Below, in pieces: positions 56,997 through 64,000 of a stretch of 64,000 nt of DNA. The translations under genes and the position numbers were made by a program. Under the pieces are notes generated by a model. The model was not told the origin of the DNA. It searched no databases and was given only the letters and a program-made list of their open reading frames with translations. Source of the DNA: Prevotella sp. (GTDB lineage Bacteria; Bacteroidota; Bacteroidia; Bacteroidales; Bacteroidaceae). Location of the stretch: assembly GCA_017458125.1 (NCBI GenBank), contig JAFTGB010000018.1, positions 1-64,000 on the forward strand, in the 5' to 3' direction. How positions within the stretch are numbered: the first letter of the stretch is position 1; each line of letters opens with the position of its first letter.

Positions 56997-57028
56997 TTTG
57001 GCTTTTACGACACTTCTTCGTACCTTTG
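56997..57028 (+). promoter_or_regulatory. Bacteroidetes promoter for the Pif1-like helicase
   Basis: TTTG (56997-57000), a 20-bp spacer and TACCTTTG (57021-57028). The -7 box ends 9 nt before the ATG at 57038, so the mRNA should be nearly leaderless. Confidence 0.75.
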
Positions 57029-57037
57029 CACGGTAAA

Positions 57038-58816
57038 ATGGCAGAAGAAAGCATCGAACAGCAGTTGGACCTGGACAACAAGGAGTGGCAACAGGCGCTC
57101 CAGATCATTCAGTACACCCGCCACTCGCTTTTCCTCACAGGAAAGGCGGGGACGGGAAAGTCGACGTTCCTGCGCTACGTGGTTCAGCATACAAAGAAGA
57201 AGTATGTCATACTGGCACCTACGGGCATTGCCGCCATCAATGCCGGTGGTCAGACGCTGCACTCGTTCTTCAAGCTGCCCTTCCACCCCCTGTTGCCCAA
57301 CGACTCACGCTATAATGCAAAGAACATCCGCAAGACGTTGAAGTATAGCGGCATAACCATTAAGCTGCTGCGCGAGTTGGAACTCATCATTATCGACGAG
57401 ATATCGATGGTGCGTGCCGATATCATCGATTTCATCGACAAGGTGTTGCGCATCTACTGCCGCAACATGCGCGAGCCCTTCGGGGGCAAGCAGCTGTTGC
57501 TCGTCGGCGACATCTTCCAGCTGGAACCCGTCGTCAAGGAGGACGAGTGGCGGCTCATGCAGCCCTTCTACGCCTCGGCTTACTTCTTCGACGCCAAGGT
57601 GTGGCAGCAGATGCAGCTGGTGAGCGTTGAGTTGCGCAAGGTCTACCGGCAGAGCGATGCCACCTTTATCGGCATACTGGACCGCATACGCCAGAATCAG
57701 GTAACTGATACCGACCTGCAATCTGTAAACGCGCGCGTACATTCCTTATTACCTGTTTCTCATTCCTCGCTCCAGATAACGTTGGCCACACGCCGTGACA
57801 CTGTTGACTGGATAAACCAGCAGAACCTGGACCGCCTGGACGGCGACAGCACGACGTTTAAAGGTTCCATCAAGGGTGAGTTCCCGCTGACGTCGCTCCC
57901 TGCGCCTATGGAGTTGGAGGTAAAGCCTGGCGCGCAGGTCATCTTCACTCGTAACGACAAGGAGAAGCGGTGGGTCAACGGCACCATAGGCATCGTCACC
58001 GGCATCGACTACGACGAGGGCGTCATCGGTGTTTGCGACGAGGACGGCAATGAGTATGACGTGGGTGTCGAACAGTGGGAGAACATGCGCTACACCTTCA
58101 ACGAGCAGGAACAAAAGATAGAGGAGGAACTGCTTGGCACCTTTGTGCAGTTTCCGCTGCGCCTGGCTTGGGCCATCACCGTACACAAGAGTCAGGGGCT
58201 GACGTTCCGCCAGGTCAAGATAGACTTCTCGGGCGGCGGAGCCTTTGCCGGCGGACAGACCTACGTGGCACTGAGCCGGTGTACGTCGTTGGAGGGACTC
58301 ACTTTGGAACAGCCCATCAGTCGCACCGACATCTTTGTGCGTCCGGAGGTCGTCAGCTTCGCCCGGCGCTACAACGACGGTCAGTTGATGCGGCAGGCTT
58401 TGAGCGAGAGCAAGGCCGACCGCGAGTACCATGATGCCGTGGCCGCTTTCGATCGTCACGACTTCGACGCCTTCTTGCGCAACTTCTTCTTGGCCATCCA
58501 CTCGCGCTACGACATCGAACGGCCCGTTGTCAAACGCTTCATCCGCCGCAAGCTCAACATCATCAACCGTCAGCAGCAGTACATCAGCCAGTTGGAGGAC
58601 GACATTCACCGCCGTGAGGAGACACTCAAGCGTCTGGCCGCCGAATATGTCCTGTTGGGAAAGGAGTGCGAGGCCGAGCACATGAACGACGCTGCCATCC
58701 GCAACTATCGTAAAGCCCTTGACCTTTATCCCGACGCTTACGAAGCACGTCGCCGACTGAGGAAGTTAGGCGAGAAATCCCAAGGTAGACCCAGCGACAA
58801 ACCGTTACTCCGTTAA
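57038..58816 (+). CDS. Pif1/RecD-like superfamily I helicase with a TPR-like tail
   Basis: 592 residues. Walker A is LTGKAGTGKSTFL (about 33-45), Walker B ELIIIDEISMV, followed by QLLLVGDIFQLEPV and, near residue 370, LAWAITVHKSQGLTF and YVALSRCTSLEGL. These are the hallmarks of Pif1/RecD2-type 5'-3' DNA helicases. The last ~130 residues are helical with a TPR-like unit (AIRNYRKALDLYPDAYEARRRL). The final residues GRPSDKPLLR are encoded by DNA that in another frame reads as the N-terminal part of the MobA-like protein, so the native C-terminus was probably replaced at a recombination junction near 58770. Confidence 0.9.
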   Translation: MAEESIEQQLDLDNKEWQQALQIIQYTRHSLFLTGKAGTGKSTFLRYVVQHTKKKYVILAPTGIAAINAGGQTLHSFFKLPFHPLLPNDSRYNAKNIRKTLKYSGITIKLLRELELIIIDEISMVRADIIDFIDKVLRIYCRNMREPFGGKQLLLVGDIFQLEPVVKEDEWRLMQPFYASAYFFDAKVWQQMQLVSVELRKVYRQSDATFIGILDRIRQNQVTDTDLQSVNARVHSLLPVSHSSLQITLATRRDTVDWINQQNLDRLDGDSTTFKGSIKGEFPLTSLPAPMELEVKPGAQVIFTRNDKEKRWVNGTIGIVTGIDYDEGVIGVCDEDGNEYDVGVEQWENMRYTFNEQEQKIEEELLGTFVQFPLRLAWAITVHKSQGLTFRQVKIDFSGGGAFAGGQTYVALSRCTSLEGLTLEQPISRTDIFVRPEVVSFARRYNDGQLMRQALSESKADREYHDAVAAFDRHDFDAFLRNFFLAIHSRYDIERPVVKRFIRRKLNIINRQQQYISQLEDDIHRREETLKRLAAEYVLLGKECEAEHMNDAAIRNYRKALDLYPDAYEARRRLRKLGEKSQGRPSDKPLLR

Positions 58817-59180
58817 TTTTAGCAGTGAGGAAGATATGCGTTTTCTAAAGATGTTTGACCGTTCTGGCATGACAAGCAAGTCCGCATTCATCAAAGCGCG
58901 AATCTTTGGTGAGCCGTTTCATGTGGTAACTTTCGACAAGAGTCTGCATGAGTATTATACCAAGTTGAGCGACTTCCATGCTCAGTTCCGTATGGTTGGC
59001 AACAATTACAACCAAACTTTAAAAGAGTTGAAAAGCCATTTCTCTGAACGTAGGGCAATGGCTCTTGTATGTAAGTTGGCGAAATATATGATGCAGTTAG
59101 TGCAGATAATGCATAAAGTGACGGAATTGACAGATAAATATCAGAAATGGATACAGAAAAGTGAGAATAAGGAAATATAA
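58770..59180 (+). pseudogene. Bacteroidales mobilization protein (MobA-like), N-terminally truncated
   Basis: From the ATG at 58836 the product is 114 residues: MRFLKMFDRSGMTSKSAFIKARIFGEPFHVV…YYTKLSDFHAQFRMVGNNYNQTLKEL…RRAMALVCKLAKYMMQLV. This resembles the relaxosome accessory proteins (MobA/MobC-type) of Bacteroidales conjugative and mobilizable elements. The same frame continues upstream without a start codon to 58770 and reads ARNPKVDPATNRYSVNFSSEED, which fits the family's N-terminal region. Immediately before is an in-frame TAG at 58767 belonging to helicase sequence. So the true N-terminus has been lost and the fragment is fused to chromosomal DNA. No relaxase gene follows. Confidence 0.75.
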
Positions 59181-59210
59181 GTGAATATATTTGTTAAATA
59201 TTGGAGAGAT

Positions 59211-59243
59211 TTGCGTGTTTGTGCTAAAAAGTTTGTATCTTTG
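59211..59243 (+). promoter_or_regulatory. Possible promoter for the regulator-methyltransferase operon
   Basis: TATCTTTG lies at 59236-59243 with a TTG at 59211-59213 (22-bp spacer, longer than ideal). The -7 box lies 24 nt before the regulator ATG at 59268. Confidence 0.45.
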
Positions 59244-59267
59244 TCCCAAATAATAGATTCATCCGAT

Positions 59268-59477
59268 ATGGACAAAGACATCAATCGGCTAAAAGTGGTT
59301 TTGGCAGAAAAGAAGAGAACGAACAAATGGTTGGCAGAACAGTTAGGAGTTGCACCCTCTACTGTTTCAAAGTGGTGTACTAATGTATGCCAGCCAAGTC
59401 TTGAAACCCTTCTACAAATTTCAGAGTGCTTGGGGGTGAAAGCCCAAAAGTTACTTAGGGAAGAATCCGATAATTAG
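59268..59477 (+). CDS. Xre-family helix-turn-helix regulator
   Basis: 69 residues from the ATG at 59268. The helix-turn-helix is NKWLAEQLGVAPSTVSKWCTNVCQPSLETLLQISECLGV (about 18-56), a compact Cro/C1-type fold. The small size and position, 5 bp upstream of a DNA methyltransferase, are those of a controller (C) protein that times expression of a restriction-modification locus, which is an inference. An in-frame GTG at 59181 exists upstream but lies before the promoter. Confidence 0.85.
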   Translation: MDKDINRLKVVLAEKKRTNKWLAEQLGVAPSTVSKWCTNVCQPSLETLLQISECLGVKAQKLLREESDN

Positions 59478-59482
59478 TAAAT

Positions 59483-60745
59483 ATGCAGTACACTGATTTC
59501 GGCAATATAGAGGTTAGCCATGAATGGGCATTTGAAAATGTCCGTTCCATTGAGCAGTGGACACATGGTTACCATCGTTATCCTGCCAAGTTTTTACCTA
59601 ATGTCGTAAAAAAGATTATAGAGGACTTTGCACCAGGCAGTAATGTCATTGCCGATTTGTTTGCTGGCTGTGGTACGACCCTCGTTGAAGCGAAAGCACA
59701 TGGGAAGAAGTCTATTGGAACTGACATCAACCCCGTTGCTCAGTTAATCACGAAAGTAAAGACCACTCCTATAGAGCCTGTAGCCCTTCAGCAATCATAC
59801 GATGCTTTGATTGGATTGTTTGATGGCTATGTAGAGAATGACTATATCAATATTCAGAAGCACGACAGAATTGACTACTGGTTCTTTCCGTCAGAAAAAG
59901 CGAAAGTAGCATTTCTATTTGAAACGGTCAACAATGCTCTCTTTGATAATGCAACAAAAGAGTTTTTCTATGTCTGCATATCTCACATATTAAAGAATTG
60001 CTCTCGCTGGCTGCAATCAAGCACAAAGCCACAAATTGATCCAGACAAGAAGATACCAGACCCTTTTGATGAATTCAAGCGCCATTGTCAGAAGATGATA
60101 AAAAGCAATCGTGCCTTTTACGAGGACTTGGAGACAAAAGGAAATCTAAATGTGGAATGCGACATTCTTTTGGAGGATGCTCGACACACTTCTATACAAA
60201 GCGGGAGTGTAGATGTCATCATCACTTCGCCGCCATATGTCACCTCATACGAGTATGCAGATATTCACCAACTGACAGGGTATTGGATGGACTATATTCC
60301 CAATATGCAGGATTTCAGAAAGCAGTTTATTGGTACATCCTATTCTGGTAATACCTCTATGGATGTTCCTGGAAGCGCGTTGGGGCAGGAAATCGTCAAT
60401 GAGTTAGGAAAGAAAAGTAAGCATATAGCCTGTGATGTCGCTCAGTATTTCAATGACATGCAAGAAGTATCAAAGGAAATGGTGCGCATCTTAGCAAAAG
60501 ACGGTCAAGCATGTATCGTGATTGGCAATACGAAGATAAAGGATGTTCACATCAAGTCAGCAGAAGTCTTTTATGATTTTCTGCAAAGTGCAGGCCTACA
60601 AGAGGTGGCTGTTATCAAGCGGAGCATCCCCCACAAACTGATGCCAACATTGCGCGACAGCGTTACAGGCAAATTCTCGAAATTGGACAATCCTAATTGC
60701 AAAAAGGTTTATCCGAATGAGTATGTTATAATCATGCAAAAGTAA
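59483..60745 (+). CDS. DNA methyltransferase (N4-cytosine or N6-adenine type)
   Basis: 420 residues. SAM-binding motif I is ADLFAGCGTT (57-66) with a following GTDINP (79-84), and the catalytic motif IV is TSPPY (248-252). Before motif I, HRYPAKFLPNVV may be motif X. The order X-I-IV with TSPPY points to an amino-methyltransferase acting on an exocyclic N4 of cytosine or N6 of adenine; the target base and sequence cannot be told. Motif IV is followed by YADIHQLTGYWMDY, and the C-terminal VCKK-like tail KKVYPNEYVIIMQK is typical. No adjacent classical restriction endonuclease is recognisable. Confidence 0.9.
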   Translation: MQYTDFGNIEVSHEWAFENVRSIEQWTHGYHRYPAKFLPNVVKKIIEDFAPGSNVIADLFAGCGTTLVEAKAHGKKSIGTDINPVAQLITKVKTTPIEPVALQQSYDALIGLFDGYVENDYINIQKHDRIDYWFFPSEKAKVAFLFETVNNALFDNATKEFFYVCISHILKNCSRWLQSSTKPQIDPDKKIPDPFDEFKRHCQKMIKSNRAFYEDLETKGNLNVECDILLEDARHTSIQSGSVDVIITSPPYVTSYEYADIHQLTGYWMDYIPNMQDFRKQFIGTSYSGNTSMDVPGSALGQEIVNELGKKSKHIACDVAQYFNDMQEVSKEMVRILAKDGQACIVIGNTKIKDVHIKSAEVFYDFLQSAGLQEVAVIKRSIPHKLMPTLRDSVTGKFSKLDNPNCKKVYPNEYVIIMQK

Positions 60746-60751
60746 GTCTTT

Positions 60752-63028
60752 ATGGAAACCAAGTTAAAGATACGCCCATACGCAAGGCTCCTAACAATGT
60801 TAGGCGAGCAACTTATCACAAACGAGCAAATTGCCCTTGCTGAACTCATTAAAAACGCATACGATGCTGACGCAGATTGGGTCAAAGTTTGTTTTGAAGG
60901 CTTTGAATATGATTTAGAGAAGAATATCATAAAAGCATTACCTCAATCCAAGATTATTATTGAAGATAATGGATGTGGTATGACATTGGATGTTATCAAA
61001 AATAGTTGGATGAATCCTGCCACTCCTAATAAGAAATCTAAAAGCACAAAAGACATACAGCGAACTCCAAAGAAGAAGCGCATCATTCAGGGGGAAAAGG
61101 GTATTGGACGTTTCGCCATTCTGAAATTAGGTAGAGATATAAAAATCTATACTCGTCCAGAGAATGCCAATTGCGAGTATTGTATCAACTATAACTTCTC
61201 TCTGTATGATGACGACTTTCTGACAGAAGAAGGAGAAAAGAAAGATCTGTATATTGATGATATTGACATCTTGGTTACAGATGGGCAACCACATTATTTT
61301 ATTCCAAGAGCTGTTGTTGTCAACAATGCAACTTATGATAAGGACAATCATCATGGAACAAGGATTGAAATATCTAACTTGAAAGGACAATGGAGCTATG
61401 AGAAAGTAGATTCCGTAAGCAAGGCTTCTCTCAAATTAGAATCCATTTTCGAGAGAATCACGCACAAAAGCAGTCTTCAACATATTGAAATCGGATTTGA
61501 ATGCAATTCGAGAAGGATGCTGCTTGGTGATAAAGCGATAGAAGAATTATCAGCGTTATTACAGAACTCTTCTGTGTTGAAAATAACAGAGGGACAATAT
61601 ATTCAGGGTGATAGTCCTAGTAAATCAGCCTTTAAATATAAGATGAATGGTGTTCCATACATCCTTCCTATATCTGACTCACAAATCTCAGGTCTTAAAT
61701 TTTTCAGAAACAGGTTTGTGGAAGGTGAGGACTTGTTTGGAAACACTCAGTTAAGAAAAAGTTCTTGTGGCAATTTCAATTTCAATTTCTTTGTTTTTGA
61801 CTTTGTCGCTGACAAAGAGAGTCCTTATTACTTAAGCAAGCAAGAGAAAGAAACAATTAAAGAACATAGAATTTACTTGTATAGAGACAATATCAGAGTT
61901 GCCCCATATGGTGACCCTGATAATGACTGGCTTGAAGTTGACAAGTGGAGAGGTGTTGGTCGTGCAGGAGATTATTTGAGTAATGACCAAGTTGTAGGAT
62001 TTGTAGATATAAGTAAAAACGGGAACCCGTCCTTAAAAGATAAGACCAACCGAGAAGGGCTTATCGAGGAAGGTTATGCCACCCGTGACTTTATTGTATT
62101 GCTCCATTCTTTCTTGTTGTTCATCCGTCAGCATCCTTATAAACAATATCAGGAGCGGGTAAATCAGCAGAAAGAACAAAAAATGAAGGCAATGCAAATC
62201 GTTGCATCAAAGTTTGACGAGTTGAAAGGCTATGTCTCAGGCAATACAAAGGCAATGGCTGTCTATAATGATTTAGTAAAGTCATATAAAGTAGAGCAGA
62301 AATACTATACTGAGGGACTTAATAAGACTGAAGATTTGGCTGCAGTAGGCTTGTCCGTGGAGACTGCTTCTCACGACATGTCCATGATGTTGAATAAGGG
62401 CGTTGATGCTGTTGACAATTTGATAAAGGACATAGAAGGTGGAGTGCTGACTGACGAGCAGATAGAAAACGAATTACACACTATCCGTGGAATGTTTTCT
62501 TTCGTAAAAGATAGGATGCGTGATATACAACTTCTTTTCAAATCTTCAAAGCAAAGGAGAAGGCCGATAAGGGTTAATGACTTGTTGGAGAAAGTTGAGA
62601 AGATATATAAGCGGACATTATTGCGGGAACATATTGATTATAGCATAAATAGAATAGGTTCACCAATCATTGCTTCTTGTACAGATGCCGTTGTTTTGCA
62701 ACTACTTATCAATTTATTTGACAATGCAGTATATTGGTTGGCAACCCCCAATATAACAGATAGAAAGATTCTTATAACGCTGGATGGAGATAACAAGCAG
62801 CTAATATTCTCTGATAACGGTCCAGGAATAAGGGATGATGATAAGCCTTTCATATTCGAGGCTTTCTATTCTGGCAAAGAAGATGGAAGAGGATTAGGAC
62901 TCTATATTGCCAGACAACTACTTCAAAGAATGGGGTATTCTATTTCTTTGGCAGAAGTGCCTTCCGAGAAAGTACTGAGTGGCGCAAACTTTGTTATTAA
63001 CTTTGTAAAATCTGACGACAATGACTAA
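60752..63028 (+). CDS. Dual-GHKL protein: N-terminal Hsp90/MORC-like ATPase plus C-terminal histidine kinase
   Basis: 758 residues, no membrane segment or signal peptide, so cytoplasmic. The first ATPase module has an N-box ELIKNAYDAD (31-40), EDNGCGM (71-77) and GEKGIGRFA (114-122), followed by several strand-rich domains to about 465, as in Hsp90/MutL/MORC-type proteins. A coiled-coil stretch (about 465-525) leads to a DHp-like helix ASHDM with H541 as the probable phosphoacceptor, then a histidine-kinase ATPase with N-box QLLINLFDNAVYW (650-662), SDNGPGI (687-693) and EDGRGLGLYIARQLL (710-724). It starts 6 bp after the methyltransferase and overlaps the next gene by 8 nt. Combining both modules suggests a phosphorelay sensor with a DNA- or structure-responsive ATPase; this is inference. 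Confidence 0.86.
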   Translation: METKLKIRPYARLLTMLGEQLITNEQIALAELIKNAYDADADWVKVCFEGFEYDLEKNIIKALPQSKIIIEDNGCGMTLDVIKNSWMNPATPNKKSKSTKDIQRTPKKKRIIQGEKGIGRFAILKLGRDIKIYTRPENANCEYCINYNFSLYDDDFLTEEGEKKDLYIDDIDILVTDGQPHYFIPRAVVVNNATYDKDNHHGTRIEISNLKGQWSYEKVDSVSKASLKLESIFERITHKSSLQHIEIGFECNSRRMLLGDKAIEELSALLQNSSVLKITEGQYIQGDSPSKSAFKYKMNGVPYILPISDSQISGLKFFRNRFVEGEDLFGNTQLRKSSCGNFNFNFFVFDFVADKESPYYLSKQEKETIKEHRIYLYRDNIRVAPYGDPDNDWLEVDKWRGVGRAGDYLSNDQVVGFVDISKNGNPSLKDKTNREGLIEEGYATRDFIVLLHSFLLFIRQHPYKQYQERVNQQKEQKMKAMQIVASKFDELKGYVSGNTKAMAVYNDLVKSYKVEQKYYTEGLNKTEDLAAVGLSVETASHDMSMMLNKGVDAVDNLIKDIEGGVLTDEQIENELHTIRGMFSFVKDRMRDIQLLFKSSKQRRRPIRVNDLLEKVEKIYKRTLLREHIDYSINRIGSPIIASCTDAVVLQLLINLFDNAVYWLATPNITDRKILITLDGDNKQLIFSDNGPGIRDDDKPFIFEAFYSGKEDGRGLGLYIARQLLQRMGYSISLAEVPSEKVLSGANFVINFVKSDDND

Positions 63029-64000
63029 TATAATTGAATTGTTCTCTGGCATTGGTGTAATTATTGACGATGAAATAAATAAGCCAGAAAGTTCTATAAA
63101 AAAAGTGATGTGCTCTTTTGAAGAAAAGAACATACCTTTTCTTGCATACGAAGATTTGCCTTCTACAGAATTGGTACATAACTTCCATTCTGTTAGTTTT
63201 GTTTTGTTGGATTGGAAATGGAATGCAGATACATCTGACGAACTACTCTTAAGAGACAACACAGCATTTATTACAGTTTTACATGAAATATGCTTTGTTC
63301 CTGTCTTTATTTTTACAGACGAGGATCCTACTAGTATTATTTCGCAATTAGAAGGAGCAGGGATGTATAGCGATACAAAAAACAATTTGATTTTTGTAAA
63401 GCATAAATCGGAAGTCGATACAACTGCAAAATTGTTTGAAGCCATTAATGGTTGGGTTAAGAGTACATTGCCTGCATATATAATTAAGGAGTGGGAATCT
63501 AAAAAGCGTAGAGCCTCTAACAGCCTTTTCCAGAGCCTTTATAATATTAATCCCAATTGGGTCAAAGTGTTTCTGGAAACATCGAAAAAAGACGATATAG
63601 ATGCTGCTTTTGAACTAGACGAGTTATTGTATGAAAATTTGCATTCTCGAATGTCATTAATGAATTTGATAGACATGCCGATAAATCGAGAAGAGCCAAT
63701 ATCATATGAAGCAAGTGAAATTAGAAATTTAATGCAAGGTCAAAGGTTCTTGCCGGCAGAAAAGTTGCTGTCAGAAATGATTTTCACTGGCGATATCTAT
63801 TTAAATGTGCAAGGTGAGGAAAGAGAATATTTTGTTAATGTTCGTCCTCAATGTGATTGTATTCCAAGGAACGGAGTAAGATTGGAAGACATTAACCTGT
63901 ATTTGATAAAAGGGATGGAGAAATCTATTGACAAATGCCATTTCAATAAAAAGGATGGTAATTTTGCCGATATAGAAACACGGGTAACTGTTTTCCCAAT
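63021..64000 (+). CDS. Response-regulator-like protein with an unknown C-terminal region (partial, runs off the window)
   Basis: At least 326 codons; the 3' end is outside the window. The N-terminal ~140 residues fit a receiver domain: an acidic pair D16/D17 in GVIIDDE, a candidate phosphoacceptor D64 in FVLLDWKW, a threonine T99 in FVPVFIFTDED, and a lysine K127 in LIFVKHK. All four expected positions are present. Beyond about residue 150 the sequence (AYIIKEWESKKRRASNSLFQSLYN…) is unfamiliar and could be an effector domain. The start overlaps the kinase gene by 8 nt (ATGACTAA), so the two are translationally coupled. It most likely receives phosphate from the C-terminal kinase module of the preceding protein. 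Confidence 0.78.
   Translation, partial: MTNIIELFSGIGVIIDDEINKPESSIKKVMCSFEEKNIPFLAYEDLPSTELVHNFHSVSFVLLDWKWNADTSDELLLRDNTAFITVLHEICFVPVFIFTDEDPTSIISQLEGAGMYSDTKNNLIFVKHKSEVDTTAKLFEAINGWVKSTLPAYIIKEWESKKRRASNSLFQSLYNINPNWVKVFLETSKKDDIDAAFELDELLYENLHSRMSLMNLIDMPINREEPISYEASEIRNLMQGQRFLPAEKLLSEMIFTGDIYLNVQGEEREYFVNVRPQCDCIPRNGVRLEDINLYLIKGMEKSIDKCHFNKKDGNFADIETRVTVFP

Follow-up and report, generated by a model that had tools for sequence, protein, structure and literature searches.

Detocs is an anti-phage two-component system whose effector is a nucleoside phosphorylase. Kinase and receiver pairs linked to restriction have been described as well: in the available part of Bellieny-Rabelo 2021 (PMC8011034), 83.4% of HEF_HK kinases carry an N-terminal HATPase_c_3 domain, in 91.6% of 644 regions a Response_reg_2 receiver is linked to the kinase, and restriction-modification genes, C5 methylases above all, lie near the pairs. 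The paraMORC GHKL ATPase families of restriction systems are defined by Iyer et al. 2008 (PMC2292703, likewise available in part). Here, we analyzed a locus at the right end of a 64,000-nucleotide stretch of a Prevotella sp. contig (hereafter the window), where genes for an Xre-type regulator, a DNA amino-methyltransferase, a histidine kinase with two GHKL ATPase domains and a receiver protein follow one another on the same strand. These four genes had been put forward, from the DNA letters alone, as a candidate undescribed system, possibly of defense, with an effector at or beyond the right edge (the original prediction). We found that the conserved unit comprises three genes, methyltransferase, kinase and receiver (hereafter the trio), and that it is compact and horizontally mobile: of 86 loci retrieved by the kinase alone, 76 have the three genes directly next to one another in this order, which is more than chance. 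The proposed four-gene unit was rejected, as a small helix-turn-helix (HTH) gene lies upstream of the trio in only 8 of 66 testable loci. The restriction-linked paraMORC kinase/receiver theme is already published, and the trio looks like a little-known branch of it.

Judged by its domain matches, the kinase would consist of an N-terminal paraMORC-like ATPase, a phospho-acceptor region at H541 and a C-terminal kinase ATPase. Pfam assigned HATPase_c_3 to residues 26-151 (3.8e-18) and HATPase_c to residues 649-749 (1.9e-19). In NCBIfam, residues 14-213 were nearest to the BbrUII/HgiDII restriction enzymes (NF050001; 3e-16), whose GHKL region aligns there, while the C-terminal part grouped with sensor kinases; unlike those enzymes, the trio protein continues into a kinase module, and it reached 59 bits against a cut-off of 550. 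The putative phospho-acceptor H541-D542 is present in 61 of 61 kinases, and E31, N35, D72, G76, K116, G119, N654, N658, D688 and the other tested glycines are invariant in the same set. R373, R378, K431 (60/61) and R434 are conserved where the S5-fold transducer domain of a paraMORC protein would be expected.

The trio resembles the HEF_HK/Response_reg_2 pairs, as far as the available text of PMC8011034 describes them, in its soluble kinase with HATPase_c_3, a phospho-His region and a C-terminal HATPase_c, in its adjacent receiver and in the restriction-modification genes nearby; the His-Asp/Glu of the kinase and the acidic, Asp, Thr and Lys residues of the receiver are also shared. Unlike these pairs, the window kinase and receiver match neither PF19191 nor PF19192 at E up to 10. 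No PF19192 match was found in the window genome, and weak ones were seen in 7 of 67 trio receivers (best 5.1e-4). Direct membership in the PF19191/PF19192 families was therefore rejected and distant homology kept: in profile comparisons, the kinase half scored 99.9% with HEF_HK kinases (n = 9, E 1.7e-33), and trio receivers scored 93.5% over 60 columns for REC and 95.3% for the output domain with Response_reg_2 receivers (n = 8). The partner gene differs too, an amino-methyltransferase directly upstream in the trio (81 of the 86 loci) as against the C5 methylases stressed in the available part of PMC8011034, and trio receivers measure about 380-480 amino acids compared with 517-575 in the eight Response_reg_2 receivers compared. 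By profile comparison, the trio is a distant sister branch of these pairs. Of the claim that the system is undescribed, the link of kinase and receiver to restriction does not hold, being published (PMC8011034 and PMC11090510, in the parts available), while the window proteins do fall outside the Pfam models of the former work.

With the paraMORC ATPases, as presented in the available part of PMC2292703, the kinase shares an N-terminal GHKL ATPase with intact ATP motifs and a position beside DNA methylases in mobile loci. The five paraMORC families have nuclease, TIR or unknown C-terminal parts, and that part of the paper mentions neither a histidine-kinase half nor a receiver. PMC13092281, again in its available part, names HATPase and REC among abbreviations for unvalidated predicted systems, one of which may be the trio. 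A full-text literature search gave no paper on the trio among the matches listed, most subscription papers lying outside its coverage. What is new relative to published work is the near-obligatory methyltransferase and the swapping of receivers. Detocs likewise has phosphorelay proposed as immune signaling; unlike it, the trio includes a methyltransferase, and no phosphorylase domain appeared among the receiver families listed (25 of 36).

Recurrence of the trio

A genome collection was scanned with an alignment of two kinases, one from the window and one from an Allorhizobium conjugative plasmid that carries a copy of the trio. The scan yielded 92 genome relatives, for which 80 loci were obtained, and 39 viral-contig loci, of which the six closest were kept, giving the 86 loci (L-numbers denote loci retrieved for comparison). 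The remaining 33 viral loci (L098-L130), with best-segment identities of 21-41%, were judged to represent other GHKL families, and L097 duplicates L065 among the 86. The receiver adjoins the kinase in 79 loci, and junctions measure −20 to +9 bases in 72 of the 81 methyltransferase-kinase and 68 of the 79 kinase-receiver cases. Among the ten non-adjacent loci, four (L026, L075, L088, L091) stop once the kinase is complete, L015 starts within the kinase, and L087 has both partners beside a kinase split over two frames; in L072 the retrieved kinase is a paralogue, and a trio occupies positions 131-4052 of L072 on the same contig. On that contig, L072:9475-12856 encodes another GHKL protein of a different kind, with a C5 methylase next to it. 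The neighborhood of GHKL ATPase-histidine kinase, receiver and methyltransferase that had been predicted is thus a real and recurrent one, set in the window within a defense island.

The methyltransferase carries the motifs DLFAGCGTT and TSPPY; across 61 sequences D58, G62, G64, S249 and P251 are invariant, and P250 and Y252 occur in 60. Protein distances over 64 trios were correlated between kinase and receiver (r = 0.85) and between kinase and methyltransferase (r = 0.64), values reached in 0 of 1000 permutations. By record titles, 77 of the 80 genome loci fall into 17 phyla, archaea included; many are metagenome bins, for which single phylum labels may be wrong. Presence is patchy, with kinases at 1e-60 in 4 of 398 genomes of the genus, its own included, and receiver-based detection in 2 of 295 genomes of the order, namely its own genome and one weak case. 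A virome scaffold of 6.2 kb consists of the three trio genes, with no other open reading frame (ORF) of at least 80 amino acids after overlap filtering; a scan of viral contigs with the window receiver returned no relative. The Campylobacter coli pTet plasmid (L152, 5001-9431) carries a distant relative of the kinase, matching at 44% over 159 residues and accompanied on conjugative plasmids by a response regulator and a dcm gene; 25 of 41 plasmid matches were from Campylobacter.

Clustering of 705 neighboring ORFs gave no family in more than 9 of the 86 loci, and the next families reach 5. The effector expected at or beyond the right edge accordingly has no counterpart as a conserved gene, and what lies to the right looks like distinct, already known systems; nor did a cognate endonuclease appear as a constant neighbor of the trio among the 86 loci. 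The largest cluster, in nine loci, is a methyltransferase family; L087 and L091 contribute pieces of the first methyltransferase and L097 is the duplicate of L065, leaving a second methyltransferase in six distinct loci. This protein of about 400 amino acids is encoded on the other strand upstream of the trio in the proteobacterial L043, L048, L065, L070, L075 and L076, where it might serve to modify the opposite strand at an asymmetric site.

Receiver types and their exchange

The window receiver gave no significant Pfam family and matched no receiver model. Its REC residues are nonetheless well kept: over 67 aligned relatives D16, the acceptor Asp (D64 in the window receiver) and the Lys are invariant, and T/S is found in all. 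The output domain carries a conserved block of its own, G-D ... N-x-R-x-x-C-D; none of the Pfam families listed (25 of 36) matched the domain convincingly, and a profile search of solved structures with receivers gave 0 matches at E up to 10.

The receiver is the most variable member of the trio, with a median identity over 64 trios of 33%, compared with 47% for the kinase and 46% for the methyltransferase. DNA common to the window and L012 starts at 58772 and is 95.1% identical up to 63076, spanning methyltransferase and kinase. From 63077, 56 base pairs (bp) into the receiver gene, the alignment is lost until the last 24 bases of the gene, after which it resumes at 87% over 84 columns. At the protein level the kinases are 99% and the methyltransferases 97% identical, whereas the receivers share 39%, and their REC parts 43%. 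Similar breaks about 50 bp into the receiver gene separate L016 from L079 (kinase 96%, receiver 40%) and L031 from L032 (kinase 84%, receiver 49%). In a comparison of 11 close pairs as DNA, two break at about 50 bp, L020/L092 and L025/L027 break further inside, and seven align throughout. A simple swap is opposed by L021/L022, L034/L036, L034/L037 and L036/L037, in which the receiver aligns through and diverges faster, by L014/L016, L057/L095 and L028/L029, in which it aligns through without faster divergence, and by the kinase-receiver distance correlation, which still stands at r 0.85.

Two receiver types, A in the window and L079 and B in L012, L013, L014, L016 and L017, cut across both kinase clades, {window, L012, L013} (support 100/100) and {L014, L016, L079} (support 99/99). 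Receiver identity is 68% within type A, 61-66% within type B between clades and with L017, and 38-41% between types. Keeping either kinase clade intact in the receiver tree was rejected by the approximately unbiased (AU) test (p-AU 2.8e-48 and 4.6e-6), as was keeping {window, L079} together in the kinase tree (p-AU 1.5e-39); the groups in these tests were chosen after the pattern was seen. Because divergence within each type lies near that of the kinases (73-75% identity between clades), either both types have long been maintained or exchange is old and repeated. An assembly chimera was judged an unlikely cause, as L012 and L013 share one receiver in separate assemblies, the window receiver type recurs with another kinase in L079, and like breaks occur in L016/L079 and L031/L032. 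Exchange beside an unchanged methyltransferase argues for a driver of receiver diversity besides methylation specificity, for instance phage inhibitors or alternative outputs. The swap also provides a handle: loci that are nearly identical elsewhere have different receiver genes, which makes the contribution of the receiver directly measurable.

Candidate functions

We infer phosphorelay, DNA sensing, an anti-invader role and an output activity for the trio, and we put at about an even chance that it is a self-contained, restriction-like anti-invader module whose phosphorylated, fast-swapping receiver is the output, phosphorelay taking the place of a recognizable nuclease. Under such a scheme, derived from sequence comparison, the methyltransferase would mark host DNA and would probably be the sequence-recognition part, while the paraMORC-like GHKL half would serve as an ATP-gated DNA clamp and input sensor. 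Methyltransferases serve as the recognition part in other multi-subunit systems. Unmarked or invading DNA would lead to clamp closure, upon which the kinase would phosphorylate itself at H541 and pass the phosphoryl group to receiver residue D64. The C-terminal domain of the receiver would then carry out or recruit the response; the receiver itself would be under diversifying pressure and exchanged as a cassette. We favor this reading because of the adjacency and spread of the trio, its correlated distances, its conserved catalytic residues and its likeness to BbrUII/HgiDII, and because of its stand-alone copies, its patchy presence, the MobC gene at the edge, the restriction-type neighbors and the receiver exchange.

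The neighbors were assessed by comparing 135 proteins around the trio in 20 loci with 128 proteins around alanyl-tRNA synthetase in the same genomes. A size limit removed 9 of 137 controls, the whole set of 7 from one region and 2 from a second, which leaves 19 of the 20 genomes covered by controls. PADLOC model matches at 1e-10 numbered 315 for trio neighbors and 111 for controls. Among the 25 commonest Pfam families, N6_N4_Mtase (6), C5 DNA_methylase (4), ResIII (3), YhcG_C (2), SWI2_SNF2 (2) and SLFN_AlbA_2 (2) were listed for trio neighbors and not for controls, some of the methylases counted being the second methyltransferase of the proteobacterial loci. Enrichment near defense genes, which the original prediction had named as a check, is moderate and descriptive; control neighbors also held defense-type matches (type I REase, DarT/DarG).

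Several observations weigh against an anti-invader module of this design. The neighbor enrichment is descriptive, with the 25 commonest families listed; no nuclease or known toxin was recognized in the trio by Pfam, PADLOC or NCBIfam, a diverged nuclease hidden in the receiver output domain being possible. Receiver diversity beside an unchanged methyltransferase is not accounted for by methylation specificity. L096 begins at the kinase and has no receiver beside it, and a receiver in L085, where the kinase frame is short, and a methyltransferase in L090 were looked for and not found. At larger distance the methyltransferase is itself exchanged, L018 and L020 sharing 77% identity in the kinase and 34% in the methyltransferase. 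Strict co-inheritance of methyltransferase and kinase does not hold at that distance, and the kinase is then not tied to one methylated sequence, unless specificity comes from the methyltransferase.

A related scheme, which we hold only tentatively, makes the trio a nuclease-free counterpart of restriction-modification, in which an ATP-gated MORC-type clamp in the kinase reads methylation and, by phosphotransfer, activates a receiver-linked effector domain of a kind not recognized before, types A and B being alternative effector alleles that balancing selection keeps across lineages, much like polymorphism in immune genes. Less probable, in our judgment, is a regulatory two-component system whose receiver acts on transcription or on the methyltransferase while neighboring restriction-modification genes do the defense. 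Restriction-type genes are often nearby, a complete Dcm/McrBC-like set follows the trio in the window, and the idea accords with speculation in PMC8011034 and with the two-component genes of McrBC-methyltransferase operons in PMC11090510 (available parts of both); set against this, no DNA-binding domain was recognized among the receiver families listed, no neighboring restriction family is constant and some trio copies stand alone. We regard as doubtful an epigenetic switch, or a plasmid- or phage-borne maintenance module without defense, in which kinase and receiver tune the methyltransferase; the lack of a nuclease in the trio, the conjugative-plasmid and virome copies and MobC at the edge would suit it, but alone it leaves unexplained the receiver exchange with a constant methyltransferase and the surroundings rich in restriction-modification genes.

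Least likely of all is a larger restriction system made up of the trio together with the downstream Dcm/McrB/McrC genes, in which kinase and receiver license the McrBC-like nuclease. In its favor, strand and order agree in the window, L012 and L016 likewise have McrB- and McrC-like genes after the trio, L024 and L079 have two C5-methylase genes and an AAA protein there, and many NxD McrB GTPases share operons with methyltransferases and two-component genes in the available part of PMC11090510. Against it, window-type McrB/McrC relatives occur at 2 of 80 genome loci (by a single-sequence search, which may miss diverged ones); in L013, with trio DNA 95% identical to that of the window, their place is taken by a D12-methylase fragment, a further N6/N4 methyltransferase and a Fic protein; and the C5 methylase and McrB front half vary between the window and L012 independently of the receiver.

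If the anti-invader reading is true, epigenetic self-marking would be joined to two-component signaling in one portable unit, and for bacterial MORC-type ATPases there would be a role open to testing, that of a kinase input domain. One kinase would also accept receivers whose REC domains have diverged strongly, a case relevant to the evolution of two-component specificity.

The locus and its island

The four genes were confirmed in the sequence, with gaps of 5 and 6 bases and then an 8-nucleotide overlap, and every motif named in the original prediction (DLFAGCGTT, TSPPY, the two GHKL domains, H541 and D64) is present. Feature coordinates are collected in Table 1. Position 59211, where the predicted locus began, is not a gene boundary; the Xre frame opens at 59181 (GTG) ahead of its ATG. 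The mobilization fragment reported at the left edge is real, and a frame check showed that its frame, followed upstream, runs over the end of a helicase gene (57026-58816). Extending the contig rightward, as had been proposed, completed the receiver gene 178 bases beyond the window (385 amino acids).

Table 1 Features of the locus in window coordinates
Feature	Position	Strand	Basis
MobC_2 mobilization gene, 5'-truncated, left end of island	58836..59177	+	PF19514 2.2e-39, profile positions 35-137
Possible -7 promoter box of Bacteroidetes type, TATCTTTG, ahead of Xre	59236..59243	+	TAnCTTTG kept in two relatives
Xre/HTH_3 regulator, 69 amino acids from ATG	59268..59477	+	HTH_3 3.7e-9
DNA amino-methyltransferase (N6-adenine or N4-cytosine), 420 amino acids, trio gene 1	59483..60745	+	N6_N4_Mtase 9e-21; MTase_II 2.9e-54
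Soluble dual-GHKL histidine kinase, 758 amino acids, trio gene 2	60752..63028	+	HATPase_c_3 and HATPase_c
Receiver protein (REC and output domain of no recognized family), trio gene 3	63021..64000, on to 64178	+	REC residues

The contig measures 122 kb, in a draft genome of 3.37 Mb. The AT-rich composition noted earlier is borne out by a guanine-cytosine (GC) fraction of 0.34-0.42 within the locus; over the 9 kb on its left side the fraction is mostly 0.51-0.58, with 0.44-0.46 at 55-57 kb. The four genes lie at the left end of an AT-rich island (GC 0.32-0.48, compared with 0.52-0.63 just outside, in 500-base windows) that extends to about 73-75 kb and whose right part contains restriction and defense genes. 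A search for direct repeats at the island ends gave a 10-base match at best, taken as chance. A second MobC fragment at the end of contig C70 (L148:6300-6494), near a groEL-like gene, shares 74% over 42 residues and 89% of its DNA over 83 bases, and perhaps marks another island of the same kind.

The receiver gene is followed, all on its strand, by genes for a C5 methyltransferase, a McrB-like AAA protein, a DUF2357/PD-(D/E)xK protein, KwaA, KwaB and a Schlafen AlbA_2 protein. The first three (L006:5260-10331, contig 64260-69331) make a complete set of C5 methylase, McrB-like and McrC-like genes that matches the PcaI/LlaJI McrBC-like composition, as given in the available parts of PMC8989522 and PMC1459862, and is separate from the trio. 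Compared with L012, this set diverges in its C5 methylase and in the front half of McrB, while the McrB back half and McrC have 89% DNA identity. The McrB motif is NMDD in the window and NVDE in L016; NxD fits both, and NMDD also fits NxxD. The Kiwa-like pair follows (L006:10342-11966, contig 69342-70966), with KwaA and KwaB side by side (PADLOC 3.3e-59 and 2.2e-94; Pfam KwaB 1.2e-19; both under NCBIfam equivalog cut-offs) and the Schlafen AlbA_2 gene directly after.

Outside the trio, the Xre gene is probably a shared controller of restriction loci, because its relatives head two other such loci in the same genome. These relatives (65% identity over 49 residues and 62% over 64) have similar upstream DNA and stand at L146:4854-8388 and L147:1-5614 (contigs C42 and C38), one locus having a MutH-family protein and a C5 methylase and the other HsdR/HsdM-sized genes, names that were assigned by reading of the sequences. 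TAnCTTTG is retained upstream of both; the box was named for its fit to TAnnTTTG, which we take to be the Bacteroidetes -7 consensus. Together the two relatives suggest that one regulator type is reused across the restriction systems of this genome. Short genes of this kind are overlooked by the longest-ORF filter used here, and the Xre gene of L012 and L013 was one that it missed.

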